Made by a program: the position numbers and the translations under genes. Below the pieces are notes generated by a model. The model did not search any database. It saw nothing but the letters and a program-made list of their open reading frames with translations, and was not told the origin of the DNA. Positions 4,195-52,566 of a stretch of DNA of 64,000 nucleotides are shown here, piece after piece. Source of the stretch: Yponomeuta sedellus (taxonomy: Eukaryota; Arthropoda; Insecta; Lepidoptera; Yponomeutidae); NCBI GenBank assembly GCA_934045075.1, contig OW203732.1:12688201-12752200 (forward strand), given 5' to 3'. Numbering within the stretch: the first letter of the stretch is position 1; every line of letters begins with the position of its first letter.

Positions 4195-7100
4195 TTAAAT
4201 TTTTATTCCACTGTTCATAATGAATTTATATAAGGGGGCGAAAAAGGTAGGATTGCTAAGTAGATTTGGAAGAAGAGTTGGTGTAGGGACACCCGTTTCG
4301 CAGCTGATTGTGTCAAGTTCCGTGATAAGTATTAATCTGTGCAATTTAAATTCTTGACAGTTGAGCACGAGATGGTTTAGGTCGGCGTTTTCAGTTCCAC
4401 AGTAAATGCAGTTCGAATCTTGGGCTAGGCTGAGTCTATAAAGGTGAGCTTGGGTTTGGCAGTGGCCGAATCTCATTCTGTTTAGGGTGGTTATGTATTT
4501 CCGGCAGTTTATGTCTTTTTTCCGATGGTACCAAGGTTGGGCGGGCGGGCTTCCTTGGATGTCTCTATACCAGCTTCCTTTCTCTTTACTGATCTCATTC
4601 CAGTAGTTGCACCATATTGCTTTCAGATTCTCATTCAGATGAACATGGAGATCAGTAAATGGCAATTTGAGGTCTGTAGAGTGATCCTCGTCAGGGTCCA
4701 GATTTGCAGCTCGATCGACGACTTCATTTCCAGTGATACCCCGGTGAGCAGGTACCCACATTAACTTAACTACCTTACCACTAACTAACAAACTATTTAA
4801 CAAATTCTTTATATTATAGATGAGATAATTTACATTATAACGAAGGCAGTTACCTTCTAAAGCTAATAATACACTGAGTGAGTCAGTAAATATAATTATA
4901 TTACAAGTATCAATATTTTGAACGTAAATTAAAGCTTGATGGATAGCATAAGCTTCGGCGGTAAAAATGCTACATCTAGTGTCAATTTTAAAACATTTAG
5001 TTTTCTTTAACTGAGGGTCAAAAAATGCTGAGTTTACCCTATCAACTGTTTTAGAGCCATCAGTATAGATGGAATACAGATGATTATTTTCCAGGAAAGC
5101 AAGTAAATCTTGTTGGTTCGTAATGCATGGTTTATGTACAAAATTATTTTTCAATAGAATATCGAGATCCATCCTATAGAGGGGCCACAAATTATCCTGA
5201 TGCAAATTTTTTGTTAAATCATTCAAATGTAAAACTATTCTTAATAAGGTTGGTATGTTACCATTTAATATCTGATTAAAATTTGCATAAGGAGCCACTG
5301 AATTGCCCAATTCAGTGGCATGCATTGGTAAAATGTGATCTAAGACAACTCTATTATTTTTAGTTAACATTTTCAAACAGAACCTTTCAGCTAGCTGTAG
5401 ACGTCTAAGATGTAAAGGGGGAATGCAAGCCTCACATTGCATTGCATTAATTGGAGTAGAGCACATAGCCCCTGTAATAATTCTCAAAGCTTTATTCTGA
5501 ATAACTTCTAATTTCTTCAGCAAAGCAAGGCTTGCCCCCATATAAGCAATTGAGCTATAATCGAAATGGCTGCGCATAATGCTCTTATATAACATAGATA
5601 ATATTTTTGGGTCAGACCCCCAATGTACTCCTGCCAGAGACCGAAGTATATTAAGGGCTTTGGAGGCGTTTTTGATGATATAATTTATGTGAGATTCAAA
5701 TGTTAGCCTATGATCCAGCAATATACCAAGAAACTTCTTTTCTTTCAACCAAGGTATAGGGAGATTATTGTATTCTACCAAACTATTACAAGGAGAAAGC
5801 CTTTTGGAGAAAAGCATAGCTCCACTCTTTAATGGGTTTATAACCAATTTGAGCTTATTAAAATAATAATTATGCACTTGAGAAAGGGCTAAATTTAAAT
5901 TATTTACAGCTATATTTACATCCTTATGTACAGAGTATATTAACAAATCATCTGCATACTGCAGGAATTGAACTCCAGTCTGGGTCAGATATTTATTTAT
6001 CTGAGATGTATAAATATTGTACAATAAAGGGGATATGGTTGCTCCTTGCATAGTACCTTTAAAAACTTGTCCTGGTCCGTGTAGTATGTTGTTAAATTTA
6101 ACATACATAGTCCTATCATAAAGAAAATGAAATATCCATTTACAGACATGTCCTGGCATATCAATCTCTGATAAAATTCCTGCCAATACAGATGGATCAA
6201 CATTATCAAAAGCTCCCTGTACATCAAGAAATGCACATACGGTGGCTGATTGGCTGTGAAAGGAATTCCTGATGTCAGAGATGAGTGAAGTAAAGCTCTC
6301 TGTAGCACTACGACCCTTCCTGAAGCCGAATTGCTGCTCTGGTAAGATTTTATTCTGCTCTACGTAATGGTCTAATCTGGTTTTAAGCATAAACTCAAAC
6401 AATTTACCTACACATGAGGATAAAGAAATTGGTCTATATGAATTAAAGTCATCACTAGACTTGTCTGGTTTCAATATAGGAATAACGCATTGTGTTTTCC
6501 AAGCTTCAGGAATGGACTGAGTCATCCACAATACATTGTACATTTCCAATAACGATTTTTGGGCATCAACATGCATGTTCCTAATAAGCTTGTAAGGAAT
6601 GTCATCTAATCCTGGGGTTGTATCTTTTCTATATTTGATAGCAAATGTGAATTCTGCAAAGGAAAATGGTTCTGAAAGATGAGCACAATTACTATTCCCT
6701 GTGTTATTAAAGATTTCATTTAATGAGTTTATGTCTATGTTTTTTTCAGGAGGAGACGGTGGAGCATATTTATCAATGAAGGCTGGAATCCATTCGTCGT
6801 TTTTGGGCATTTTGGGTAATGTTACACGTTTGAATCTTTTGATGTAATTCCAAATAGTGCTTATAGGTGTATACCTGTTAAAAGATTCAACTAATTTAGT
6901 CCATCCGTATTTCTTCTTTTCTTTTAATAATCTTTTTTTAAAAGCATTTAATTTTTTATATTCAATGTAACTCGACATATTACCATTACTTCTATACATA
7001 TTTAGAGCTTCTTTACTTTTATTAACAGCATCTGAGCATTCATTGTCCCACCAAGGAACAGGCTTTTTAATGACAATGCTATTAGTTTTCCTTAGCTTTG

Positions 7101-7956
7101 GAATAGTGACATCTTTAATCTGATTAAGTTCTTCGCAAAAATCATTGTAAGTTTTGACTGGGTTACTACTGTCTATATTAAATTGCCCTAATATTCTCTC
7201 TGTTTCAGATGCATAAGCCTGCCAATCTGCTTTATTATAAAGATATCGATCAGCGGAATTACCAATATCGTATTTATGAATTGTGGTGTGAATTGTTATA
7301 ACTGTTGGAAAATGATAGCTGCCCATCGCATCATCATGAACTGTCCACTCGCAAAGAGGAGCAACAGAAGGACTGACAGAAGAAATATCAATTGCAGAAG
7401 GCATTTTAGAAGGACTACCTACAGTGGTAGGAAAACCAGTGTTTAATATACATAGATCATACTCATCGAGTGTGTTATAGATCTCATTACCGCGAGAGTT
7501 AGACCTCAAACACCCAAAAGCGACGTGATGGGCGTTGAGATCGCCCGAAAAAAGCATTGGTTTCGGTAACATATTCAAAATCTGTTTGAGTCTTCTGCAC
7601 TGAAATCTACGGTTATCATTAGGAGGCGGTATATAACTACAGAGAATTGATAAATTACCAGCATTGGTTTGTAAGATTATTGCAGCAGAATGCATAAAAT
7701 TGTAAAAAGGAACAGAGACAGTAGAGAATTTCAAATTGGATTTAACTAAAATTGCTACACCTCCTCGTCCATCTTTCCCGTCTTGTCGAATTATATTGTA
7801 ATTAGGAATATTAAAAGTGCTATTGTTCCTAAGCCAAGTCTCATTTAAAAGACAAACGTCTACATCATTATTTAATAAAAATGAAATTAATAATGGCTTC
7901 TTGTTAATAACTCCTTCTACATTAAACTGTACTATTGTAATAAATGATTTATCCAT
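4195..7956 (-). CDS. LINE ORF2: APE endonuclease, reverse transcriptase, RNase H
   Basis: The 1,253-aa open frame starts at an ATG inside the ORF1 stop region. The N-terminal third is an APE-like endonuclease that nicks target DNA: NETW with Glu39 as catalytic candidate, SGDLNAHH near 137-144, and the late SYHFP block near 213-217. The central reverse transcriptase has the YADD active site near residue 666. The C-terminal RNase H runs from YTDGSK (about 964) through FTAEAYA and FTDSLS to GNEVVDRAA, giving all acidic residues of the D-E-D-D set. A terminal CIYCG...HLVLNC zinc-knuckle-like motif follows, as in many LINEs. No frameshift or stop is seen. Confidence 0.96.
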   Translation of the reverse strand: MDKSFITIVQFNVEGVINKKPLLISFLLNNDVDVCLLNETWLRNNSTFNIPNYNIIRQDGKDGRGGVAILVKSNLKFSTVSVPFYNFMHSAAIILQTNAGNLSILCSYIPPPNDNRRFQCRRLKQILNMLPKPMLFSGDLNAHHVAFGCLRSNSRGNEIYNTLDEYDLCILNTGFPTTVGSPSKMPSAIDISSVSPSVAPLCEWTVHDDAMGSYHFPTVITIHTTIHKYDIGNSADRYLYNKADWQAYASETERILGQFNIDSSNPVKTYNDFCEELNQIKDVTIPKLRKTNSIVIKKPVPWWDNECSDAVNKSKEALNMYRSNGNMSSYIEYKKLNAFKKRLLKEKKKYGWTKLVESFNRYTPISTIWNYIKRFKRVTLPKMPKNDEWIPAFIDKYAPPSPPEKNIDINSLNEIFNNTGNSNCAHLSEPFSFAEFTFAIKYRKDTTPGLDDIPYKLIRNMHVDAQKSLLEMYNVLWMTQSIPEAWKTQCVIPILKPDKSSDDFNSYRPISLSSCVGKLFEFMLKTRLDHYVEQNKILPEQQFGFRKGRSATESFTSLISDIRNSFHSQSATVCAFLDVQGAFDNVDPSVLAGILSEIDMPGHVCKWIFHFLYDRTMYVKFNNILHGPGQVFKGTMQGATISPLLYNIYTSQINKYLTQTGVQFLQYADDLLIYSVHKDVNIAVNNLNLALSQVHNYYFNKLKLVINPLKSGAMLFSKRLSPCNSLVEYNNLPIPWLKEKKFLGILLDHRLTFESHINYIIKNASKALNILRSLAGVHWGSDPKILSMLYKSIMRSHFDYSSIAYMGASLALLKKLEVIQNKALRIITGAMCSTPINAMQCEACIPPLHLRRLQLAERFCLKMLTKNNRVVLDHILPMHATELGNSVAPYANFNQILNGNIPTLLRIVLHLNDLTKNLHQDNLWPLYRMDLDILLKNNFVHKPCITNQQDLLAFLENNHLYSIYTDGSKTVDRVNSAFFDPQLKKTKCFKIDTRCSIFTAEAYAIHQALIYVQNIDTCNIIIFTDSLSVLLALEGNCLRYNVNYLIYNIKNLLNSLLVSGKVVKLMWVPAHRGITGNEVVDRAANLDPDEDHSTDLKLPFTDLHVHLNENLKAIWCNYWNEISKEKGSWYRDIQGSPPAQPWYHRKKDINCRKYITTLNRMRFGHCQTQAHLYRLSLAQDSNCIYCGTENADLNHLVLNCQEFKLHRLILITELDTISCETGVPTPTLLPNLLSNPTFFAPLYKFIMNSGIKI

Positions 7957-9115
7957 TATTCTGTAGTGATTTAATCAACACTTCCTGCACAATGGAAGCA
8001 TTGATTTTGGGCAAATTACCATTCGCCAATGTTACCAAAGCTCCTACCAAACCATTTAAGATGAAGTCGCTCTTGACTATTTCTTTGACTAAATTTGAAT
8101 TTGAGATCACAAGTTGTGGAGGTTCTGTTACTATGGGTTTTGTGGGAGCCCTAGCAATCATTGGCGAAGGCTTGGCTTTCAGTGGAGGGAAGTTCGAGTT
8201 GTAGTTTTTGACAATATTGTCTTGTTTTTTGGCTGAAGCAGCAATTTTTGCATAGTTAGTCCTATTAACATGTTCTTCTAACTTGTTTTTTTTAACTGGA
8301 CAGTCTCTGGAAATTGCCAAGTGAGGCCCTTGGCAGTTGATACATTTCAATTCATCCTCTTTGTCGCATTTTGTGAAGTGGTGCTCACCAGAGCAGATAG
8401 AGCACTTCTGCAGTCCCTTACAGAACTTCGCTCCATGGTTAAATCTGAAGCACTTAAAGCACTGCAGAAGTGGTGCTCTGTACTCATTGACCTTAAATCT
8501 ATACAGATCTAGGTATACATACTCCGGTAGTGTCTGTGACAAGAAAGTCACAGACACTGAACTGTACGGAACAATTTCTCCGTCGACCTTGCGGGTAAAG
8601 CGCCTTACGCCTACAATTTCAAATTCTGCTGCAAGTTTCTTAAACAGTTCTTCATTCGTGATACTTGTTGGAACGAAGCGAAGGACCCCAATAGTCTCTA
8701 CAGACCTCGCGGGAATATAGGCTCTAAAGCCCTGTTTCTTCAGCAGTTCGTCATTCGTCAGGAAGTTGTTCGCATTGGAAGCTTGTCCAAAGCACACACC
8801 AATTTTATTAGCATTGATGCGCTTGATGCCCACCACGCCCTTGACGTCATTTTTGAAGATCGTGTTTAGCTGGTCAGGGTTTTTATTACCAATTCTGCCA
8901 TTTTCGGATTCAACAAAGACAATGAATTCATCGCTCACCAAATTTTCCGCGTACAGCCGCCTGTAACCTGGTTTCAGATATGGCTTAAATCCATCATCCT
9001 GCTGCTGCTCGCCGTGATGTTCGCGTCCATGGTCCTCAGTTCGCCCCCTCTTTAATTTGGGAGGAGGTTCATCCTCGGAAAGCCCAGGGGGCTTTGCCCC
9101 CGGGCGATCTTTCAT
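7949..9115 (-). CDS. LINE ORF1: gag-like nucleic-acid-binding protein with three CCHC knuckles
   Basis: The 388-aa protein probably binds element RNA to form the retrotransposition particle. The N-terminus is charged; residues about 60-200 look like one or two RRM-type folds. Residues 219-272 hold three zinc knuckles: CFKCFRFNHGAKFC, CSICSGEHHFTKC and CINCQGPHLAISRDC. The stop codon overlaps the ORF2 start within ATGGATAA (minus strand, 7956-7949), which suggests coupled termination and reinitiation. The ATG at 9115 was chosen because it follows a short 5' UTR that begins right after the target duplication. Confidence 0.95.
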   Translation of the reverse strand: MKDRPGAKPPGLSEDEPPPKLKRGRTEDHGREHHGEQQQDDGFKPYLKPGYRRLYAENLVSDEFIVFVESENGRIGNKNPDQLNTIFKNDVKGVVGIKRINANKIGVCFGQASNANNFLTNDELLKKQGFRAYIPARSVETIGVLRFVPTSITNEELFKKLAAEFEIVGVRRFTRKVDGEIVPYSSVSVTFLSQTLPEYVYLDLYRFKVNEYRAPLLQCFKCFRFNHGAKFCKGLQKCSICSGEHHFTKCDKEDELKCINCQGPHLAISRDCPVKKNKLEEHVNRTNYAKIAASAKKQDNIVKNYNSNFPPLKAKPSPMIARAPTKPIVTEPPQLVISNSNLVKEIVKSDFILNGLVGALVTLANGNLPKINASIVQEVLIKSLQNNG

Positions 9116-15100: not shown

Positions 15101-23187
<8,087 letters not shown>

Positions 23188-36361: not shown

Positions 36362-39300
36362 ATGATAGAGGTATTATCTACTGAGATAGTGTTGGTTTTG
36401 TTAGAAAACAATAATGTAAGTTTGTAAGTTCCTGTTCACATTGTTTATTTTTCAAGTGATTGATGTTTCCACTGTTCATGACATAAAATGCTCTCATTTA
36501 TAGGTGCCTGTAGTTGCAGAAGATGTTTAAACAACAGCTCTCTCCACGGAGCGTACATCCCTATCAAACCACTGTGGTTTCGAGGAGCGAACAACAGTTC
36601 GAATCGGCGTCTCAACAACGGGCCAAGTTTCCGTGGGCTGAGGATATAAACGCTCCTGTCTATCAAGTTACTGGAACCGACAGTTCCACCTCCGAAAATG
36701 CTTATAATGTACGACCAGATAACTGTAATATTCATTCAATGTCTCATGTCATTGTTCTGCTAATGAAACCCTTTATTGCAGGTTCCACAATATTTTACAG
36801 GAACTATGAGGGAGTATGGAGCTCACTCGCCAGTTTACCAGGCGCCTTATGGCACTGGAACATGGCATAACTATAAGAAAGTTAAAAAAATACCCCCTCA
36901 CATGGCCCCGGAGGTGATGTCGTTCCCTCAATGTGCTTCAGCATTCTCTCTACCACTGTGCGATCTGGATCCTCGCTTGGAAACACCTGGCCGTTCACCA
37001 GTGCCTCCCATGTCCTCTGTTAGCCCTGAAGTGCCTATTATTGGTGCCTGTGGAGGCCATTGTCCTGGCTTTGAATATGTGTGCTATTATATTTTACAGG
37101 TAATTATAAGGTACATAATATAACCTAAAGAATTTTATCAGTAACATAAGAGCCTATTCTTAATTTTCGAGGTGAAAACAGGTAAAAATTATTGTGCTTT
37201 TTATTTCAGGTGATATTTGTGGTTGGTATACTGACTGGGATATCCCTGTGCATAGCTGGCATTGTATTAAGGCGTACCAATCGAAATGGTGACCTTGGTG
37301 TTTTAGTTTATATTGGTAAGAAACTCAAAGTTAATCTACGAGGGTAGATCGAAATATTGGCGGCCTAACACATAAATACATGAACTATTTTATTGTAACT
37401 GACCTCCTTCGATTTGTTTACTCTCTGGTTGTCACATTGTAAAATTCTATCGCAATAGCACTATCTGTTTTTAAATTAGACTGAATTTTGTGAGCCTAAG
37501 TGCACCGTTTTTAACCTCCCAACTCGCAGCGGAGACAGATCTGTCTCAGCGCATAGAGTAACGTCAAACGCGCAGCTGAGACAGATCTGTCCCAAAAGCC
37601 AACAGACCAAAAAAATGTTTAAAAGTGCGTTATTGTTCTATGGTATCGATTGAGCGTGTAAGGGCTCGTACAGAGCATAAAATTACCTTTAATCTGTGGT
37701 ATAATACTCTATGGCACTTCTAACAAAAAAAGCAGTCAATTTTATTGTCAATTTTTTTGCCGTGAAGTGGTGAGAGCGCTCGAGAAATTATTGAAGAAAA
37801 AGTGTTTTTTTGTTAGAAAGGTAAGTGTAAAGTGTATTTACGTGTTACTTTATGCATTTATTTCAATCAATACACATCGTTTTACCTAAATAATGCAATA
37901 AATACTTTAAATTTGGCTCAAGAAAATGTTCGATAAAGCCATTTTGTAAAAAAGTTGTACTTTCTTTCGACATTTTTGATGATTGTTTGAGTAATTTGGA
38001 TAAAACCCACTATATTTGGCCAGTAAAACTATCGTACTTTGTTATTTTCATCGTTTTTATGTAGAATCACTAAGTATTGGTGAAATAATTACAAAAACAA
38101 AATATTTTCCGTCGCTTTCCGAGTCGTTGGTATACCGGAAATTGGTTCGTATATAGGAAATTTCCGTCACGACTTCCGGTCGTGTCTTCCAGTTCTGTAG
38201 TGATGTTCTATGACTATTTCAATTGATTATCGGCATTTCCTATAAGTTTCTAGTGAGAATACGCAAATTTCTAATTAGATTCTAATATTTATCTGATAGT
38301 TTATACAAAAAATATTATTTATTTATTTTATAGATGTGGAGACCTGGACACCCAATTCCTCAGGAATTTGTAGACCTCCTACAGGATGAGGAGGAAGAGG
38401 ATGAGAGCGAGGGGGAGTTGGTGTTTGGGCTGGAGGAGGAGGAGGAGGAAACTGGGGTGGCAAACCTGATGGTATGTTATTATATATTACCTATATGAAT
38501 CGTTATCAACCCTTATATGTCCCCACTGCTGGGGCACGAGTCTCTTCCTGCATCGCAGGAAGGTTAGGCCTTACTCCACCACGGGGGCCAAGTCCGGGTT
38601 GGTGGAGGATTGTGAGACAGTGGCGGGCCTCACTGTCAGAAGTTATCAAGCCGCCCATAAGGCCTCTGACATGGCTTAACGACTGTCACGGGACGCTCAC
38701 CCATCCTGTACCTGACCGCGCCTGTTGTTGCTTAACCAAGTGATTGATTCCAATCACTCGGTTCTCCTAGGCCACGAGCGCTTCATTATATGAATATTTT
38801 ATTATATGAATACTAATTTTGTATTATTTGTTGTTCGTTCCGTTAATTTAGGTTTATACTTCTTACAGGCAATGGACATCATGCTGGAGAAGGAGGACGG
38901 GGAGCTAGTGCCACTGGAGGCACTAAGCGTGCCACCTTCTACCTCTAGGTATAATACTTGATGTTTTTTCTACCTAGTTTTTTTTTTGCAAGTGGATAAA
39001 TAACAAATATGTTATTGTTTACAGAGAATCTCACGGAGATTCGCCCTCCCGGGACGAGAGGTAATTATTATCTTAGTAAAATATTTTGTTACTCTCCTAT
39101 ATGTATGGAGAAAATAAATGGTACTACTTTTTTAACGTTTATTTTTCGAACAGGCTCTCCAGCAGCAGCAGCAGTGACGATGATGAAGTCCGTAGGGAGA
39201 TGTTGCGAAACATCAGCCCGTTGTAAGTTTGAATAAATATTTATATTGCTCAAATCACATGGTGTGTTTTTGTATCTATAGAACCATTTTCAATTTAATT

Positions 39301-42300
39301 TTACTTTACAGGTCTGTTCACGACGAAGAGGTGCCGAGGTTTGGTGTCGTGGAGCTGCTGGACGCGCCGGGACCCGCCGCTGCTGCTACTCGTGGACGTG
39401 GTGCCACTCGGGGAGGGCGAATAGGGCGTGGACGCGGCGGACGAGGTATGAGGAGTGGCAGAGGAGGTAGTGGATGGGTGCGCGGGCAGCCTCTAGTTGA
39501 GCGCTTTGTTGCTGACGACGAGTTGCCCGCACAGATGCGGCAGGATATCGGCCGCTTATTGGCCGATCGTAACAGACGAGAACGCGTTGTGCGTGAACGC
39601 AGAGTAGTCGAAAATATGAATGAGCAGGAGGAAGCTTTCTTTGACTGTGAAGATTTTCAGTGGGAGCCGATGGATGGATGGCAAGGAAGGAAAGAAAGAT
39701 TCCTCCCCGAAAATCCTGGGCCAACCAGCGTTTTCGATAACGCTTATAGTGCATTCCGTGCTTATTGGGATGATACTATATTATCCCACGTAGCCACGGA
39801 AAGCAATAGGTACGCCCAGGGCATTCGGAGCATGAGATTCCGTCATGATTGGGAGCCGACCAATTTAGACGAAATCCTTGTGCTGTTCGCATTCTGGATG
39901 ATGTTAGGCATTATTAGAATGCCTACCATCAAATCTTGCTTTAGCAAGTTACCTATAATGCGGACAGACATATTCCGATGCCTGTTCACGGAGAAAAGGT
40001 ACTGGAATTTAAATAGAGCCTTTCACCTTGCTGACGGTTCACGCGATCCAAACGATCCCGAAAACGTATTGTATCCAATGGGCCCAATACTGGACCATTT
40101 GAACAGTAAGTTTAAGGAACATTATACAATGGACCAGGATATTTGCATCGATGAATCGTTGACACTGTGGAAAGGGCCTCTTTCATTTAAGCAGTATATT
40201 AAAATGAAAGCGGCAAGGTTCGGCATAAAGACCTTTCAATTGTGCGAAAGCGCAACTGGGTATTTATGGTCGTTCTTTGTTTACGTTGGCCGTAGGACGA
40301 CTCCCGACGCTGCTCTTCCCTCGAGCGTTTCAACTGTAATGAAACTGGTTCAACCAATTCTGAATTTGGGTCATGTCTTGTTCATGGATAATTGGTTTAA
40401 CTCCCCTCAACTGGCACGGTTTCTGAAACGACACCGCACCGACTGTGTTGGAACCCTGCGTTCCAATAGGAAAAATGTTCCTGTCGTCGTTCAGAAGGCC
40501 GTTCTAGCTGAGGGTGAGTTTGTTGCTCGACAATCTGGTGATGTTGCGGTGGTGGCATTACAAGATAGAAAGCGATTACACCTTATTACCACATGCCACG
40601 ACACTACTCAGATTCAGAAAGAAGGTAGGCCAGGTCGTCCGGCCCAATTCAAATTGGAACTCGTTGACGACTACAATCGGGGAATGGGTGGGGTTGATCG
40701 CTTAGATCAAATGCTGGAACCTTACTTAGTCGAACGGAAACAGTGCCGAAAATGGACAAAGAAGTTCTTCAAAAGGCTCTTGAACATTTCTATTCAAAAT
40801 GCACGCATTTTGTTAGAAAAAAGTAGTGGAACGAAATTGGATTCTCTGGCGTTTCGGCTGACGCTAGTTCAATCCATTATTGACAAACACCTTCCTCGTG
40901 TTCCTCGGGCCACTGAGCGACAGGCTGTACCGTCACAGTTCCCACTACCAGTTCGGCGATTGACAGAGCGACATTTTATTCGTCGGAAACTCGTTACTGA
41001 AGCGATGTTGGCCAACACGGCCCATCGTTCGAACTTGGGTCGCGGCTATTGTACTTGGTGCAAAAAATGCGAACGAAGGACGAAAACAGTATACGAGTGC
41101 CCGGAGTGTAACGTGCCGCTTTGTCTCGAAAAATGTTTTCGCCTTTTTCACTCTTACGCCGAACCGTTACCGGAGCACATGGCACGTGAGTGAATAAGAG
41201 CGCATTTTTTTTAAATCGCCTGTTACATTTCGGTTCTGTTTTCCCTTGGCTTTGTTTGGCTACAGTTTTCGGTTGTCGCCTATTCATTTATTATACTGTA
41301 TATTTGAGAGAGGTTGACGCATGTCAGAGTTGTGTAAGTGATTTTGATTTGTGATTTTTATGTAAGATTTGTGTATGTAGATAATAAAAGTAGACATACT
41401 TCGTCCGCTCCTTTACGTTCTGTTTTCTTGTTTGTCTAGACAAACTTTTTTTCTAGATTGGTGAAAAACTTATTTGCCTATCGAACTAATGGAACAGGTG
41501 GAGTTTAACATTTTTCATTAATTTGATGGGCAGGTAAAATCCAACGGCGTACCCTTTTGTAAGTAAACAAATAATGTACTCCTGCAGCTTTTTCTTTTGT
41601 CTTTTGCTATGTCATGTTTGTGTACTAATAGCGAGATTGTTTTGATGGAAATTCGATAAAAGTATTGTTAAAACATTTAATTATGAAAGCTCCATACTCC
41701 TACAATTTAAAAGTTATAAGAATTCATAATTATATCACTCAGTATAACTCACGATTGCACTACTGTTTAAATTTGAACGAAATAATAATATGTAATAATA
41801 AAATATAGTTGGGATATTTCCACACACGGTAACTAAGCAAAACTTGTGGTATGGGTACTAACTGATATACATACTTACATAATTCTAAATGCTCGTACTT
41901 TAATACCATTCAAACACCTAGAATGCAAAAACCAATAAAATTAGGGATCAAACCCACGACCTATTGCTCAATAAACTGTATTTGACATGTTTGATCTCTA
42001 TTTTAGCACAAATACGCAGAAATGCTAAAACCGAAAGAAAACATAGAATTCACGAAAAATAAACTTAACGATGGCGAAAATCTTTTGCCGTTCTATGTTT
42101 GTTTTAACCATTTTCCTTACTACGTTAGGTTAGATAAAGATGTTGGCACGTAGAAAGAACTACGACCGCCATACTTTTACAGGGCACGCGCAGCTCTTCT
42201 TAAGTGCCGGCATCTATACTACATGACATTTATTATATAAACAAATAAACTAACAGTGTGGTGTTGGATTATTGTATTTTTTGTTTGCATGATCAGCTGC

Positions 42301-45300
42301 ATCACGCTATCTGTGGAACGGGTTTTGTTTTCTTAATTTTGTGTTCTTTTGCATTGTATTCCTAAGTTGCAAAAACATTTTTAAAAACCTATTTAGAGGC
42401 TAAAAATTTTACCCATGCCCGGATTCGAACCCACAACCTCTGGCTATCCGTGCCAGAGGTTGCGGGTTCGAATCCCGGCATGGGTGAAATTTTTAGCCTC
42501 TAAATAGGTTTTTAAATTTGTCCTTAGCACGTGTTAGTGCATTAAAAATAAAAATATTGCAAAAACATACGAAGGACATTCTAAAGCTACGTATATACGT
42601 ATTAGGTCATAATTCAGCTCATGCACGAATGTTTTCAACTCAACTAGTTAATTTAACATGTTTGTATCTTTTATTAATTTTACTTATTTAAAAAAAAAGA
42701 CAACCAGTTTACAACTTTGTAATATTTTAGACTTGCTACATGAAAGTAAACAACGAGAGAAAATTCGCTGTTGATGTAGTGAAAGTGAAAAATACTAGAA
42801 GAATACTAGTAGAAGCAATACTAGACATAATTGTTAAGTCAATCACCACTACAATCACCACTAACAATGTATAATAGGCTATTTATGGTGAGATACTTAC
42901 ATAATGGCGGTTAGTATAAACAAACTACTTGACGCCGAACTTGATACCCAATGCGCGGCACGCGCCACCACTTGAGCTCAGACAGCTTTATTTATGGACT
43001 TTGTTTTTGCTGCCTAGCGACACAACGTTTATTTTTACTAATAACATGGTGGTAGTAAAATTAATATTCATTTTGCATGAATTTTATCGACAATAATTGT
43101 TTTTCCCTATTTTATCGACTTTTGCCCAATGAATACTCTCCCTTACCCCATCCCTACTAAACAAGACAAGACAATGGAAATACTATTTTATTGTTTTATT
43201 CTTTATTTTTGTCTGAATATTTACTGTAAATAGCGTAAAAAAAGAAAATAAATATTTCGTTATGAATGTACTGTTTCATTTCTCATTTACCCTTTTGTTC
43301 GTGACCTTGGTACAAAAATATAATGCAGTCGATATATTTAATTTTTACTAGATTTTGCAGAATATTTCTATAAAAGAGCATAGATTTCAATAAGATAAGA
43401 GTATTTTCATTCAATAAAAGTGGTTTTCACTTCGTAAGGACCCACATTTACAGTGCATTTTCGAATTCAAATTGTCACTCTCATACTGTTCAACAGGAAA
43501 TGTTAGCTTTCTTGCAAAAAGTTTGATTCTGTTTTGGTAATAAATTTTGTACGGGATAGAAAAAACAAACTTGATAGAATGAATAGGTATATATTCAGAA
43601 CCCTGTTACATAAATTTATCTTTTCCTAAACTTACGTAATAGTTCGTAAGCACACAAAAGTTTAGGGCACTACGCAAAAATTGCTAGTAATTACGTTTTC
43701 GTACTCTGAATGTGAGGATTGGCGTGTCTGAATTTTGATAAAGTTGTTATTGTTTAGTAAAGTGGTTATTCTAGAGTGTAATTATTCCTGTCTCAACCAA
43801 ATCCGTACATTGGTAAATCTCAATAATTTGAGATTTAGGCAACCTGGTAATTTTTTTTTTGCGCCACCATGACACCCCTGTCAGTTTAATGTCATGTGAT
43901 GTACTGGGGGGTCGTTAGTGGGGAGGTTAAATTTAAACAAAAGTAATTTTATTTTTCCACGTAATCTCCACTTAACTCAATGCACTTCTTCCATCTGGTT
44001 TCCAACGCCTGTATGCCGGTCATAAAAAAAGTTTCTTCAAGGCCTACAAAAAAGTCCCCCACCGCAGCTTCGACCTGCTCATTTGATGAAAATTTTTGAC
44101 CTCCAAGGCGTTTTTTCAGGTTTGGGAATAAATGAAAGTCTGAAGGTGCCAAATCAGGGGAATAGGCGGGCTGGGGCAGTAATTCAAAGCCACAATCACG
44201 AATTTGAGCCATAGATTCAACAGACGTGTGAACGCGTGCATTATCCTGATGGAACAACACTTTCTTGCTGAGTAATCCTGGCCTTTTCTCTTTGATTGTT
44301 TCACGCAAACGACGTAAAAGGGTGCAGTAATAAGCGTTTATAGTTTCACCTTTTGCAGGGTAGTCCACCATGATGACACCCTTAGCATCCCAAAAAACTG
44401 ACGCCATCACCTTGCCAGCTGACAAAATTGTTTTGGCTTTTTTTGGAGTCGGTTCATCAGGTTTTTTCCATTGCTTGGATTGCTGTTTTGACTCTGGGGT
44501 ATAGTGGTGTACCCAGGTTTCATCCATTGTCACAAATCTGGCCAAAAATTCTTGTGGATCAGCCTCAAACATTTCCAAACAGTCACGAGAAATCGTGAGC
44601 CGTATTCGTTTTTGTTCAACTGAAAGCAATCTGGGTACCCACCGCGCAGAAACCTTAGAAAATCCAAGTTCATTTACTATGATGTTTTGTGTTCTGCCAA
44701 TATCAGATCACAGATTTTCCCGATGTTTTCTTCAGTCATAGACCGGCCGGAGCGAGGGTCATCTTCAATACTCTCTCATCCACGTTTAAAGTCTGCAACC
44801 CACTTTTTCAGTCGTATACGACGGAGCAGATTCCCCCAATGTTGTTGAATCTTCGTGAATCTCTTTTGGACTTAGTTTTTTTTTAACAGGTATTTGATGA
44901 CCGCACGTCGCTCAATTTTCTCCATTCTTTAACCTCCCCACTAACGACCCCCCAGTACATCACATGACATTAAACTGACAGGGGTGTCATGGTGGCGCAA
45001 AAAAAAAATTACCAGGTTGCCTAAATCTCAAATTATTGAGATTTACCAATGTACGGATTTGGTTGAGACAGGAATAATTACACTCTAGAATAACCACTTT
45101 ACTAAACAATAACAACTTTATCAAAATTCAGACACGCCAATCCTCACATTCAGAGTACGAAAACGTAATTACTAGCAATTTTTGCGTAGTGCCCTAAACT
45201 TTTGTGTGCTTACGAACTATTACGTAAGTTTAGGAAAAGATAAATTTATGTAACAGGGTTCTGAATATATACCTATTCATTCTATCAAGTTTGTTTTTTC

Positions 45301-48300
45301 TATCCCGTACAAAATTTATTACCAAAACAGAATCAAACTTTTTGCAAGAAAGCTAACATTTCCTGTTGAACAGTATGAGAGTGACAATTTGAATTCGAAA
45401 ATGCACTGTAAATGTGGGTCCTTACGAAGTGAAAACCACTTTTATTGAATGAAAATACTCTTATCTTATTGAAATCTATGCTCTTTTATAGAAATATTCT
45501 GCAAAATCTAGTAAAAATTAAATATATCGACTGCATTATATTTTTGTACCAAGGTCACGAACAAAAGGGTAAATGAGAAATGAAACAGTACATTCATAAC
45601 GAAATATTTATTTTCTTTTTTTACGCTATTTACAGTAAATATTCAGACAAAAATAAAGAATAAAACAATAAAATAGTATTTCCATTGTCTTGTCTTGTTT
45701 AGTAGGGATGGGGTAAGGGAGAGTATTCATTGGGCAAAAGTCGATAAAATAGGGAAAAACAATTATTGTCGATAAAATTCATGCAAAATGAATATTAATT
45801 TTACTACCACCATGTTATTAGTAAAAATAAACGTTGTGTCGCTAGGCAGCAAAAACAAAGTCCATAAATAAAGCTGTCTGAGCTCAAGTGGTGGCGCGTG
45901 CCGCGCATTGGGTATCAAGTTCGGCGTCAAGTAGTTTGTTTATACTAACCGCCATTATGTAAGTATCTCACCATAAATAGCCTATTATACATTGTTAGTG
46001 GTGATTGTAGTGGTGATTGACTTAACAATTATGTCTAGTATTGCTTCTACTAGTATTCTTCTAGTATTTTTCACTTTCACTACATCAACAGCGAATTTTC
46101 TCTCGTTGTTTACTTTCATGTAGCAAGTCTAAAATATTACAAAGTTGTAAACTGGTTGTCTTTTTTTTTAAATAAGTAAAATTAATAAAAGATACAAACA
46201 TGTTAAATTAACTAGTTGAGTTGAAAACATTCGTGCATGAGCTGAATTATGACCTAATACGTATATACGTAGCTTTAGAATGTCCTTCGTATGTTTTTGC
46301 AATATTTTTATTTTTAATGCACTAACACGTGCTAAGGACAAATTTAAAAACCTATTTAGAGGCTAAAAATTTCACCCATGCCGGGATTCGAACCCGCAAC
46401 CTCTGGCACGGATAGCCAGAGGTTGTGGGTTCGAATCCGGGCATGGGTAAAATTTTTAGCCTCTAAATAGGTTTTTAAAAATGTTTTTGCAACTTAGGAA
46501 TACAATGCAAAAGAACACAAAATTAAGAAAACAAAACCCGTTCCACAGATAGCGTGATGCAGCTGATCATGCAAACAAAAAATACAATAATCCAACACCA
46601 CACTGTTAGTTTATTTGTTTATATAATAAATGTCATGTAGTATAGATGCCGGCACTTAAGAAGAGCTGCGCGTGCCCTGTAAAAGTATGGCGGTCGTAGT
46701 TCTTTCTACGTGCCAACATCTTTATCTAACCTAACGTAGTAAGGAAAATGGTTAAAACAAACATAGAACGGCAAAAGATTTTCGCCATCGTTAAGTTTAT
46801 TTTTCGTGAATTCTATGTTTTCTTTCGGTTTTAGCATTTCTGCGTATTTGTGCTAAAATAGAGATCAAACATGTCAAATACAGTTTATTGAGCAATAGGT
46901 CGTGGGTTTGATCCCTAATTTTATTGGTTTTTGCATTCTAGGTGTTTGAATGGTATTAAAGTACGAGCATTTAGAATTATGTAAGTATGTATATCAGTTA
47001 GTACCCATACCACAAGTTTTGCTTAGTTACCGTGTGTGGAAATATCCCAACTATATTTTATTATTACATATTATTATTTCGTTCAAATTTAAACAGTAGT
47101 GCAATCGTGAGTTATACTGAGTGATATAATTATGAATTCTTATAACTTTTAAATTGTAGGAGTATGGAGCTTTCATAATTAAATGTTTTAACAATACTTT
47201 TATCGAATTTCCATCAAAACAATCTCGCTATTAGTACACAAACATGACATAGCAAAAGACAAAAGAAAAAGCTGCAGGAGTACATTATTTGTTTACTTAC
47301 AAAAGGGTACGCCGTTGGATTTTACCTGCCCATCAAATTAATGAAAAATGTTAAACTCCACCTGTTCCATTAGTTCGATAGGCAAATAAGTTTTTCACCA
47401 ATCTAGAAAAAAAGTTTGTCTAGACAAACAAGAAAACAGAACGTAAAGGAGCGGACGAAGTATGTCTACTTTTATTATCTACATACACAAATCTTACATA
47501 AAAATCACAAATCAAAATCACTTACACAACTCTGACATGCGTCAACCTCTCTCAAATATACAGTATAATAAATGAATAGGCGACAACCGAAAACTGTAGC
47601 CAAACAAAGCCAAGGGAAAACAGAACCGAAATGTAACAGGCGATTTAAAAAAAATGCGCTCTTATTCACTCACGTGCCATGTGCTCCGGTAACGGTTCGG
47701 CGTAAGAGTGAAAAAGGCGAAAACATTTTTCGAGACAAAGCGGCACGTTACACTCCGGGCACTCGTATACTGTTTTCGTCCTTCGTTCGCATTTTTTGCA
47801 CCAAGTACAATAGCCGCGACCCAAGTTCGAACGATGGGCCGTGTTGGCCAACATCGCTTCAGTAACGAGTTTCCGACGAATAAAATGTCGCTCTGTCAAT
47901 CGCCGAACTGGTAGTGGGAACTGTGACGGTACAGCCTGTCGCTCAGTGGCCCGAGGAACACGAGGAAGGTGTTTGTCAATAATGGATTGAACTAGCGTCA
48001 GCCGAAACGCCAGAGAATCCAATTTCGTTCCACTACTTTTTTCTAACAAAATGCGTGCATTTTGAATAGAAATGTTCAAGAGCCTTTTGAAGAACTTCTT
48101 TGTCCATTTTCGGCACTGTTTCCGTTCGACTAAGTAAGGTTCCAGCATTTGATCTAAGCGATCAACCCCACCCATTCCCCGATTGTAGTCGTCAACGAGT
48201 TCCAATTTGAATTGGGCCGGACGACCTGGCCTACCTTCTTTCTGAATCTGAGTAGTGTCGTGGCATGTGGTAATAAGGTGTAATCGCTTTCTATCTTGTA

Positions 48301-51300
48301 ATGCCACCACCGCAACATCACCAGATTGTCGAGCAACAAACTCACCCTCAGCTAGAACGGCCTTCTGAACGACGACAGGAACATTTTTCCTATTGGAACG
48401 CAGGGTTCCAACACAGTCGGTGCGGTGTCGTTTCAGAAACCGTGCCAGTTGAGGGGAGTTAAACCAATTATCCATGAACAAGACATGACCCAAATTCAGA
48501 ATTGGTTGAACCAGTTTCATTACAGTTGAAACGCTCGAGGGAAGAGCAGCGTCGGGAGTCGTCCTACGGCCAACGTAAACAAAGAACGACCATAAATACC
48601 CAGTTGCGCTTTCGCACAATTGAAAGGTCTTTATGCCGAACCTTGCCGCTTTCATTTTAATATACTGCTTAAATGAAAGAGGCCCTTTCCACAGTGTCAA
48701 CGATTCATCGATGCAAATATCCTGGTCCATTGTATAATGTTCCTTAAACTTACTGTTCAAATGGTCCAGTATTGGGCCCATTGGATACAATACGTTTTCG
48801 GGATCGTTTGGATCGCGTGAACCGTCAGCAAGGTGAAAGGCTCTATTTAAATTCCAGTACCTTTTCTCCGTGAACAGGCATCGGAATATGTCTGTCCGCA
48901 TTATAGGTAACTTGCTAAAGCAAGATTTGATGGTAGGCATTCTAATAATGCCTAACATCATCCAGAATGCGAACAGCACAAGGATTTCGTCTAAATTGGT
49001 CGGCTCCCAATCATGACGGAATCTCATGCTCCGAATGCCCTGGGCGTACCTATTGCTTTCCGTGGCTACGTGGGATAATATAGTATCATCCCAATAAGCA
49101 CGGAATGCACTATAAGCGTTATCGAAAACGCTGGTTGGCCCAGGATTTTCGGGGAGGAATCTTTCTTTCCTTCCTTGCCATCCATCCATCGGCTCCCACT
49201 GAAAATCTTCACAGTCAAAGAAAGCTTCCTCCTGCTCATTCATATTTTCGACTACTCTGCGTTCACGCACAACGCGTTCTCGTCTGTTACGATCGGCCAA
49301 TAAGCGGCCGATATCCTGCCGCATCTGTGCGGGCAACTCGTCGTCAGCAACAAAGCGCTCAACTAGAGGCTGCCCGCGCACCCATCCACTACCTCCTCTG
49401 CCACTCCTCATACCTCGTCCGCCGCGTCCACGCCCTATTCGCCCTCCCCGAGTGGCACCACGTCCACGAGTAGCAGCAGCGGCGGGTCCCGGCGCGTCCA
49501 GCAGCTCCACGACACCAAACCTCGGCACCTCTTCGTCGTGAACAGACCTGTAAAGTAAAATTAAATTGAAAATGGTTCTATAGATACAAAAACACACCAT
49601 GTGATTTGAGCAATATAAATATTTATTCAAACTTACAACGGGCTGATGTTTCGCAACATCTCCCTACGGACTTCATCATCGTCACTGCTGCTGCTGCTGG
49701 AGAGCCTGTTCGAAAAATAAACGTTAAAAAAGTAGTACCATTTATTTTCTCCATACATATAGGAGAGTAACAAAATATTTTACTAAGATAATAATTACCT
49801 CTCGTCCCGGGAGGGCGAATCTCCGTGAGATTCTCTGTAAACAATAACATATTTGTTATTTATCCACTTGCAAAAAAAAAACTAGGTAGAAAAAACATCA
49901 AGTATTATACCTAGAGGTAGAAGGTGGCACGCTTAGTGCCTCCAGTGGCACTAGCTCCCCGTCCTCCTTCTCCAGCATGATGTCCATTGCCTGTAAGAAG
50001 TATAAACCTAAATTAACGGAACGAACAACAAATAATACAAAATTAGTATTCATATAATAAAATATTCATATAATGAAGCGCTCGTGGCCTAGGAGAACCG
50101 AGTGATTGGAATCAATCACTTGGTTAAGCAACAACAGGCGCGGTCAGGTACAGGATGGGTGAGCGTCCCGTGACAGTCGTTAAGCCATGTCAGAGGCCTT
50201 ATGGGCGGCTTGATAACTTCTGACAGTGAGGCCCGCCACTGTCTCACAATCCTCCACCAACCCGGACTTGGCCCCCGTGGTGGAGTAAGGCCTAACCTTC
50301 CTGCGATGCAGGAAGAGACTCGTGCCCCAGCAGTGGGGACATATAAGGGTTGATAACGATTCATATAGGTAATATATAATAACATACCATCAGGTTTGCC
50401 ACCCCAGTTTCCTCCTCCTCCTCCTCCAGCCCAAACACCAACTCCCCCTCGCTCTCATCCTCTTCCTCCTCATCCTGTAGGAGGTCTACAAATTCCTGAG
50501 GAATTGGGTGTCCAGGTCTCCACATCTATAAAATAAATAAATAATATTTTTTGTATAAACTATCAGATAAATATTAGAATCTAATTAGAAATTTGCGTAT
50601 TCTCACTAGAAACTTATAGGAAATGCCGATAATCAATTGAAATAGTCATAGAACATCACTACAGAACTGGAAGACACGACCGGAAGTCGTGACGGAAATT
50701 TCCTATATACGAACCAATTTCCGGTATACCAACGACTCGGAAAGCGACGGAAAATATTTTGTTTTTGTAATTATTTCACCAATACTTAGTGATTCTACAT
50801 AAAAACGATGAAAATAACAAAGTACGATAGTTTTACTGGCCAAATATAGTGGGTTTTATCCAAATTACTCAAACAATCATCAAAAATGTCGAAAGAAAGT
50901 ACAACTTTTTTACAAAATGGCTTTATCGAACATTTTCTTGAGCCAAATTTAAAGTATTTATTGCATTATTTAGGTAAAACGATGTGTATTGATTGAAATA
51001 AATGCATAAAGTAACACGTAAATACACTTTACACTTACCTTTCTAACAAAAAAACACTTTTTCTTCAATAATTTCTCGAGCGCTCTCACCACTTCACGGC
51101 AAAAAAATTGACAATAAAATTGACTGCTTTTTTTGTTAGAAGTGCCATAGAGTATTATACCACAGATTAAAGGTAATTTTATGCTCTGTACGAGCCCTTA
51201 CACGCTCAATCGATACCATAGAACAATAACGCACTTTTAAACATTTTTTTGGTCTGTTGGCTTTTGGGACAGATCTGTCTCAGCTGCGCGTTTGACGTTA

Positions 51301-51646
51301 CTCTATGCGCTGAGACAGATCTGTCTCCGCTGCGAGTTGGGAGGTTAATATTGTTTTCTTGCTGAGGCCGCGAACTTTTCAATCCATCCTCGTATATTTA
51401 GTACCTACCAAATAGAAACTGTAAGATATGACAACATAATATTTATCTTATACACAATTTTTTCGCAGGATGTTTATCCTCATGTGTCTGTGGCGTGCTA
51501 CTCGGCGTCCAGTGCTGCGTCCGACGTGAAATTCGCCAGCGCAAAATGCGTGCCAACGTCCATATTCCTTTACAACCTATGATGGTAAGTTTCGATGTTT
51601 GCTCCTTTGTTATTTTCCAGCATGCTTTTTATTGATGGTCACTATA

Positions 51647-51725
<79 letters not shown>

Positions 51726-52566
51726 ATATTCATGGACATATTACACAGATCTCGTTAGCCCTATACTTAGTACAACTGAATGACTTGTGTTATAGGTGCT
51801 AACTCGACGATAGATTTAATACAATAAATACATAGTTACCATCCAAGACCCGAGACAAACTAGAAAAGTTCGTTTCCTAGTTTGACCCGGCCGGGGATCG
51901 AACCCGAGACCTTCGGTTTTACAGTCAGCGTGCCAAACCGCTGCGCCACCGAGGCCGTTATATTTCTTTACTATCTAAGGCAGATTCCTGGCAGTAGCTG
52001 AATGAAAGAAGAGACGTCATAACCAGGAGTGTATGAGTAAGGGCTATTAACTATAATTCTTTTAATTTTGCTTACAGGAAGCTCCTGCCCCTGCTTGCCC
52101 TCTCCTGACAACGACATTACCTCGTGGCCAAATATATAGGTAGAGGAAGAATGAAAAATTATTTATTTAATTGCAATAGAACATAGAAGACATGACCCAA
52201 GACATCTCAGAGACGAGTGAAAATTATAACTATACTCAGATCTACAGACCCTTGAAGTTGCAAAAAACAAACTGTAAAAATTTACGCAAAAAAAACTTAT
52301 GGCTGTTTATGCCGCAAAAAAAACATTTCCGACACTTTATTTTACACAAAGAAAGCAATACGCGCTGGGCACGCGTGGATATATTTACACAAACCATACT
52401 TAAGCGTATTATAAACTACTACATTGGAGAGCTTATTTCTGTAAAAAAAACCACCGGTTTTTTGTCTCTTATGATGACTTTTCCATGTCTCAGGCCAACT
52501 ACCATGCTGTGTGTGGACGAAGACGTAACCGGAGTGCCATGGTGGCGCCGCACCTCAACAGACTGA
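36362..52566 (+). CDS. Unnamed two-segment membrane protein, split by the giant palindrome (7 exons, ~305 aa)
   Basis: Exons: 36362-36415, 36520-36708, 36782-37099, 37210-37315, 51469-51584, 52078-52139, 52494-52566. All are GT-AG and phases agree, giving 918 nt including TGA. The first exon is tentative; translation could begin at 36523 instead (286 aa). The N-terminal half is polar and Tyr/Pro-rich. Two hydrophobic segments follow: VIFVVGILTGISLCIAGIVL, then LGVLVYIGCLSSCVCGVLLG. A Cys/Arg-rich juxtamembrane stretch (CCVRREIRQRK) and a short tail ending RRTSTD come next. Intron 4 holds the 13.8-kb transposon palindrome; without it the intron would be about 319 bp. The protein resembles the convergent gene at 55017-62499. 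I do not recognise a named family. Confidence 0.75.
37515..37593 (+). repeat. piggyBac terminal region with two subterminal palindromes (left arm)
   Basis: Right after TTAA come CCTCCCAACTCGCAGCG, the perfect 16-bp palindrome GAGACAGATCTGTCTC (37532-37547) and a near copy GAGACAGATCTGTCCC (37578-37593). These are plausible transposase-binding repeats. The mirror lies at 51266-51344. Confidence 0.75.
38334..41193 (+). CDS. piggyBac transposase, left-arm copy (5 exons, 734 aa)
   Basis: Cut-and-paste transposase acting at TTAA. Exons: 38334-38471, 38869-38948, 39025-39060, 39154-39222, 39312-41193; all GT-AG and in phase (2,205 nt). The N-terminus is acidic (DEEEEDESEGE). Next come a Gly/Arg-rich RGRGATRGGRIGRGRGG stretch and the DDE_Tnp_1_7 domain. 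The catalytic aspartates are Asp388 (CIDESL), Asp467 (FMDNWF) and Asp570 (GGVDRLD), with spacing 79 and 103, close to the classical piggyBac triad. The C-terminal Cys-rich domain (688-721: CTWCKKC, CPEC, CLEKC, H) is the usual end-binding zinc domain. An AATAAA lies at about 41382. Intron 1 contains a family D repeat. The gene appears fully intact. Confidence 0.95.
38500..38790 (+). repeat. Family D repeat, copy 3, inside transposase intron 1
   Basis: Plus-strand order CCCACTGCTGGGGC, CTGCATCGCAGGAAGG, GGGGGCCAAGTCC, GACAGTGGCGGGCC, AAGGCCTCTGACATGGC, then CCTGACCGCGCCTGTTGTTG and TAGGCCACGAGCGCTTCA. This is the most complete copy of the family in the window. It predates the palindrome because the mirror copy is at 50069-50359. 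Confidence 0.75.
41194..43903. other. Distal part of the left palindrome arm, no gene
   Basis: This lies between the transposase stop and the mariner. It holds the transposase 3' UTR, AT-rich unassigned DNA, a family A mini-palindrome (42375-42556) and a flank CACCATGACACCCCTGTCAG adjoining the mariner. No second piggyBac terminus (TTAA-adjacent CCTCCC motif) was seen here, so the original opposite end is missing. The right-arm mirror is 44956-47665. Confidence 0.55.
42375..42556. repeat. Family A head-to-head mini-palindrome (left arm)
   Basis: A reversed 3' half (AACCTATTTAGAGGC, ACCCATGCCCGGATTCGAAC) runs into CTCTGGCTATCCGTGCCAGA. It then returns as the forward 3' half (GGGTTCGAATCCCGGCATGG, GCCTCTAAATAGG). 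The loop is exactly the family's anticodon stem-loop. The 5' half with the A box is absent. The mirror is at 46303-46484. Confidence 0.8.
43904..44955 (-). mobile_element. mariner element with 28-bp inverted repeats, at the palindrome centre
   Basis: Perfect 28-bp terminal repeats at 43904-43931 and 44928-44955 begin CTGGGGGGTCGTTAGTG, and TA dinucleotides flank both ends. Length is 1,052 bp. The encoded transposase (minus strand) is broken in its N-terminal third. Only the terminal repeats are symmetric; the body is single-copy, so the palindrome has a real asymmetric spacer. Confidence 0.92.
43949..44925 (-). pseudogene. mariner transposase, N-terminal third broken
   Basis: From the ATG at 44925 the frame reads MEKIERRAVIKYLLKK and then breaks at an A-run. 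Later pieces read KKWVADFKRG, stop, ESIEDDPRSGRSMTEENIGK and further stops, so the DNA-binding half is disrupted. The catalytic part is open from about 44629 to 43949 (226 codons): TMDETWVHHYTPE, LFHQDNARVH and YSPDLAPSDFHLFP give the D,D34D triad (34 residues between the last two). Without the N-terminal helix-turn-helix region it should not transpose itself, although the ends could be moved in trans. Confidence 0.9.
46303..46484. repeat. Family A head-to-head mini-palindrome (right arm mirror)
   Basis: Inverted copy of 42375-42556, with the same GGATTCGAACC / GGTTCGAATCC pair around the anticodon-like stem-loop. It shows that the mini-palindrome existed before the large duplication. Confidence 0.8.
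47666..50525 (-). CDS. piggyBac transposase, right-arm copy (5 exons, 734 aa)
   Basis: Mirror of the gene at 38334-41193. Exons on the minus strand: 50525-50388, 49990-49911, 49834-49799, 49705-49637, 49547-47666. The large exon translates to the identical protein, and the splice borders are the same. Catalytic Asp388, Asp467 and Asp570 and the C-terminal zinc domain are all kept. The two genes are convergent toward the mariner, so read-through from either gives antisense to the other. Confidence 0.95.
50069..50359 (-). repeat. Family D repeat, mirror of copy 3
   Basis: Inverted copy of 38500-38790 within intron 1 of the right-arm transposase gene (CAGCAGTGGGG, CTGCGATGCAGGAAGA, GGACTTGGCCCCCG). 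Confidence 0.75.
51266..51344 (-). repeat. piggyBac terminal region (right arm mirror)
   Basis: Exact inverted copy of 37515-37593, carrying the same two GACAGATCTGTC palindromes and ending next to TTAA at 51345-51348. Both ends of the block are therefore the same transposon end, not a left/right pair. Confidence 0.75.
51649..51959 (-). repeat. Family B tRNA-derived SINE-like repeat, copy 1, with (TTTA)n tail
   Basis: On the minus strand the head is GGCCTCGGTGGCGCAGCGG (A box), with a B box GGTTCGATCCC, then GGCCGGGTCAAACTAGG. The body reaches about 51728 and then a (TTTA)n run of ~80 bp (51649-51727), which reads as its 3' tail. It lies in intron 5 of the membrane-protein gene. Confidence 0.75.

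Follow-up and report, generated by a model that had tools for sequence, protein, structure and literature searches.

The window analysed here is a 64,000-nucleotide stretch of the lepidopteran Yponomeuta sedellus (GenBank assembly GCA_934045075.1, contig OW203732.1, positions 12,688,201 to 12,752,200 of the forward strand); all positions below count from its first base, and it contained no undetermined base (N). At 37511-51348 it carries a 13.8-kb palindrome in which two inverted copies of a piggyBac-superfamily DNA transposon interrupt a mariner element. By our gene model, this whole nest lies in an intron of a host gene. The features are collected in Table 1.

Structure of the nest and its host gene

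A repeat finder delimited the two arms (37511-43931 and 44928-51348) as ungapped inverted repeats of 6,421 bp with 100% complementarity and a 996-nt spacer, and self-BLAST of the window recovered the same two arms. The initial annotation had described them as reverse complements of ~6.4 kb and equal length, with mirror coordinates totalling 88859. Direct comparison of the two TTAA-to-TTAA units agreed with this at 6,420 of 6,420 bases; the 6,421st arm pair is an A/T match inside mariner DNA and need not mean anything. Arm identity over such a length is far beyond chance. No mirroring was found in the outer flanks beyond the element ends.

The arm borders read exactly TTAA, CCTCCC ... GGGAGG, TTAA at all four junctions, giving the element a perfect terminal inverted repeat of 6 bp; a sub-terminal motif, AGACAGATCTGTC, occurs at positions 19 and 65. 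Gene modelling with GT/AG splice sites predicted a five-exon transposase gene encoding 734 amino acids (aa) in each arm, and ~2.7 kb of the element remains downstream of it. The 654-codon open frames previously reported (39229-41193 and 47666-49630) are indeed present, but they do not represent the protein, as their TTG start falls in an intron. The predicted transposase matched PF13843 (DDE_Tnp_1_7; 277.8 bits, cut-off 22.4) and PF13842 (zf-Tnp_2, a C-terminal cysteine-rich zinc finger; 28.7 bits, cut-off 24). Its residues aligned to D268, D346, D447 and D450 of piggyBac 6x67 were aspartate in all four cases; these positions of piggyBac were probed by mutation (PMC2533014). Solved relatives were piggyBat 9c0f (E = 9.6e-46) and piggyBac 6x67 (E = 4.5e-32). 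A homologue search returned 71 proteins; the top six aligned over 71-79% of the protein at 58-65% identity and were followed by Tuta absoluta (56% over 79%), then Colias, Mythimna and other Lepidoptera. Judged by these features, each arm is a complete piggyBac-superfamily DNA transposon with an apparently intact transposase gene. It resembles piggyBac and piggyBat in its DDE_Tnp_1_7 core, C-terminal zinc finger, four aspartates, TTAA at both ends and short terminal inverted repeat. In contrast to these distant solved members, the element here is 6.4 kb long, with a five-exon gene and the long segment after it.

The DNA between the arms belongs to a mariner. A 226-aa frame at 43949-44629 matched Pfam Transposase_1 and DDE_3 as well as Mos1 and SETMAR in PDB, and an intact 349-aa relative (P0121) was 96% identical over that frame. 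Six intact relatives were tried in alignment, and residues 1-349 of intact relatives map from 44925 to 43952; here the spacer is split over two frames, is interrupted by stops and has an internal deletion. The mariner frame sits between two TTAA sites 998 bp apart, one 3 bp before the ATG and the other 18 bp past the stop codon. The terminal inverted repeats (TIRs) of the mariner were found outside the arms: 37333-37380 aligns with 51398-51352 over 49 columns with mismatches, the two are oppositely oriented, and TACGAGG occurs in both. TIRs with TA thus enclose one transposase frame, which is broken. Since the coding part forms the spacer and both TIRs lie outside the arms, the mariner was interrupted twice. 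Joining 37337-37510, 43927-44928 and 51345-51395 restored 1,227 bp, approximately the size of one mariner. The transposase core, the 349-aa relatives and the TIRs with TA are shared with Mos1 (PDB 3hos, 4mda) and SETMAR (3f2k); unlike these, the copy here is broken and acts only as a target. These results upheld the earlier description of 37511-51348 as transposon DNA with an apparently intact piggyBac transposase gene per arm, and identified the spacer as mariner.

The host-gene exons on either side of the nest were joined into a 246-aa protein with 49 homologues, of which the named ones were from Lepidoptera (Helicoverpa armigera, 79% identity) except for the caddisfly Arctopsyche. In an alignment of eight homologues chosen from the 49, the sequence VYIG-CL was continuous over the exon junction in all eight, and the residues after CL were variable. 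Because the homologues are continuous at this junction, the gene model places the nest inside a 14,153-bp intron of a conserved lepidopteran gene. A Pfam search with a 113-aa piece of the host protein gave no domain match.

Table 1. Predicted features of the nest and the surrounding host gene (positions in the window).
Feature	Position	Strand	Evidence or details
Host-gene exon upstream of the nest	37210-37315	+	sequence reading, homologues; ends ...VLVYI-G, phase 1
Host-gene intron containing the whole nest	37316-51468	+	splice sites (GT...AG), homologues
mariner 3' non-coding end and TIR (TACGAGG...), stopping at left TTAA	37337-37514	-	TIR alignment, empty-site join
piggyBac copy 1 (arm 1) with both TTAA	37511-43930	+	6,412 bp plus TTAA at 37511-37514 and 43927-43930
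Transposase gene, copy 1	38334-41193	+	exons 38334-38471, 38869-38948, 39025-39060, 39154-39222, 39312-41193; 734 aa
mariner coding part	43931-44928	-	broken: frameshifts, stops, internal deletion
piggyBac copy 2 (arm 2) with both TTAA	44929-51348	-	6,412 bp plus TTAA at 44929-44932 and 51345-51348
Transposase gene, copy 2	47666-50525	-	mirror exons 50388-50525, 49911-49990, 49799-49834, 49637-49705, 47666-49547
mariner 5' end and other TIR, starting at right TTAA	51345-51395	-	TIR alignment, empty-site join
Host-gene exon downstream of the nest	51469-51584	+	sequence reading, homologues

Two long microsatellites with a four-base unit, both of one kind, lie at 51643-51728, ~300 bp from the right arm, and at 18394-19151; in the latter, two open frames consist of repeated IYLF. 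The window also contains, at 4195-9115 on the minus strand, a non-LTR (long terminal repeat) retrotransposon that looks intact, judging from a 1,253-aa frame with endonuclease, reverse transcriptase and RNase H domains; a 388-aa frame upstream of it had no Pfam match.

Other copies of the element and relatedness of the arms

We searched the genome (657.5 Mb, 57 contigs) with one arm. At least 112 matches were obtained, with 38 of 6,125 candidates scored. Among the matches listed, the full 6,420 bp was matched by both arms and by one further copy, L011 (C36:10355782-10362201). Nine near-complete copies (L012-L020) were longer by ~81 bases at arm position 1174, and the match of L021 began only at arm position 1234. 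From arm position 1175 onward, the ten near-complete copies L011-L020 were 99-100% identical to the arm. L011, L013 and L019 are single copies with the same termini, and each is flanked by TTAA on both sides, as both arms are; their flanks differ by eye. Within L012-L020, only L013 and L019 were intact at both ends (TTAA and element tip); the other seven had 1-11 terminal bases (counting TTAA) missing or changed at one or both ends. Such tip damage, perhaps caused by failed excisions, may have stranded these copies.

An alignment of 12 copies gave no substitution between the arms, 2 substitutions from the arms to L011 and 15-23 to L012-L020; L016-L019 were 0-2 substitutions apart from one another. 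L021 was aligned and then dropped from the pairwise counts, its first 1.2 kb not being element sequence. The alignment did not include L022-L034, which match partially or have diverged further, or L035-L038, which are fragments of copies present in it. Two arm bases, T at 916 and C at 4375, were private to the arms and found in none of the 10 other aligned copies; L021 likewise had T at 4375, as the others did. These shared private bases indicated that, of the 12 aligned copies, the two arms are most closely related to one another. Zero differences between them correspond to a divergence of at most ~4.7e-4 (95%), or at most ~80,000 generations at a butterfly mutation rate of 2.9e-9.

Three further observations were made on repeats in the element and its family. 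Each arm contains two 70-bp stretches inverted to one another around a 7-nt loop (42375-42521 and 46338-46484), and the self-inverted 70-bp match was also found in L011-L021 (11 of 11); we take it to resemble a pair of tRNA-derived short interspersed elements. Of the 118 piggyBac-family matches listed, 24 fall on contig C16, where 17 lie between 1.6 and 4.9 Mb, a transposon-rich region. On contig C9, two diverged piggyBac copies (4737690-4740767 and 4798744-4801821) share a strand at a distance of 61 kb; their scores are identical and the pieces next to them match. They are likely a segmental duplication or a retained haplotig.

Origin of the palindrome

The arrangement probably arose by two nested, inverted insertions of one recently active piggyBac-superfamily element into the mariner, the second of them by a local hop. 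An older mariner would already have resided in the intron when a complete piggyBac entered the TTAA at one end of its coding part; a copy would then have entered the TTAA at the other end in the opposite orientation. The second insertion could have been, for example, a hop from sister chromatid to sister chromatid after replication, which would leave two copies on one chromatid, and hence in cis, without any copying by the transposase. Nested and inverted piggyBac insertions are an ordinary kind of event, and a local hop fits best with the arms being each other's closest relatives in the alignment. In mammalian cells, piggyBac is reported to hop locally in ~10% of cases or not at all, within ~100 kb (PMC3650578).

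Several points weigh against this origin. Sleeping Beauty is reported to hop locally much more than piggyBac (PMC3952818). If 10% of hops were local and spread over 100 kb on each side, only ~1 in 1,000 hops would land within 1 kb. Cut-and-paste alone adds no copy, so that a duplication step has to be assumed, and an unsampled donor could have given rise to both arms. Finally, BLAST of 40 fetched loci (237,644 bases) matched mariner in only the two loci that overlap the nest and gave none outside it; the reconstruction of the empty site therefore rests on the mariner's own anatomy.

The strongest rival to a double insertion with a local hop is a merge of haplotypes, which we consider unlikely. 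The element would have moved by simple cut-and-paste from one mariner TTAA to the other with seamless repair, leaving the left and right insertions on different homologues; a pseudohaploid assembly would then have kept the longer branch at two neighbouring bubbles, and the palindrome would exist on no chromosome. This explanation needs no gain of a copy and accounts for both the arm identity and the two private bases, and seamless excision of piggyBac at TTAA is known (PMC7351741). If the C9 pair is a retained haplotig, the assembly does retain haplotigs, which bears on this explanation. It nevertheless demands a particular assembler choice at two bubbles, and long accurate reads, if used, would normally place two 6.4-kb insertions separated by 1 kb in phase.

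It is also rather improbable that a distant donor supplied two independent insertions into one mariner, with no local hop involved. In favour of this reading, the element is multicopy, with the ten near-complete copies L011-L020 and the near-identity of L016-L019. However, the bases at 916 and 4375 would demand that the same unsampled donor was used twice or that one arm was the donor of the other, and with 13 randomly placed copies (L009-L021), chance would yield 2.4e-4 pairs as close as 998 bp.

Perfect arm identity along 6.4 kb could be the product of a chimeric fold-back read or an amplification hairpin, and long inverted repeats are difficult for assembly. Such a fold-back would have mirrored the flank included in it, whereas here the outer flanks are different, and a separate half of the same mariner runs on into each; all four borders, moreover, fall exactly at element ends. 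A sequencing or assembly artefact is thus very improbable, and we rejected it.

Least credible of all is a mobile composite or foldback element in which the 13.8-kb palindrome moves as a unit: its outer ends are identical piggyBac left ends, both with TTAA, and the outermost duplication alone would look alike, but the outer flanks are opposite ends of one mariner, split by the whole coding part that is now the spacer, rather than two sides of one target site, and no second palindrome of long, adjoining, opposite-strand piggyBac copies was seen among the 112 matches listed. The single palindromic unit proposed in the initial annotation was accordingly abandoned, as each arm is a separate, complete, TTAA-flanked element, the mariner is its target and the element also occurs singly elsewhere.

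Possible hairpin RNA and silencing

The gene model places the inverted transposase copies inside a predicted host transcription unit, with the transposase gene of arm 1 sense to the host gene and that of arm 2 antisense. If both copies are in cis, a host pre-mRNA would contain the whole element in sense and antisense and could form a 6.4-kb hairpin closed by a 1-kb loop of mariner. Host transcription could then supply long double-stranded RNA and, from it, small interfering RNAs (or feed PIWI-interacting RNAs) that would shut down the piggyBac family in trans; we regard this outcome as quite doubtful.

The closest related case is the Mu killer locus of maize, in which part of mudrA is duplicated in inverted orientation. 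For this locus, one source (PMC3440606) gives a proposed hairpin of ~4 kb formed by read-through from a flanking gene, and also a newer model based on short antisense transcripts, in which the long hairpin may play a part. As described there, Mu killer shares with the present locus an inverted duplication of a transposase gene beside a host transcription unit and a proposed read-through hairpin RNA. It differs in being a partial duplication for which silencing was observed, whereas the present locus holds two complete elements. Among the papers listed by literature searches on palindromes, on nested and on inverted insertions and on hairpins in insects, no title or abstract opening described the present arrangement, which is no proof of its absence from print.

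The locus is a record of two insertions 998 bp apart by a recently active lepidopteran piggyBac, tied together by private bases. A native case such as this is useful, because the local-hopping figure found was for mammalian cells. If the two copies are in cis, the perfect 6.4-kb intronic hairpin would offer a natural test of whether chance inverted insertions of DNA transposons set off silencing in insects. Should that prove true, self-inverted local insertions would be a self-limiting step in piggyBac invasions.

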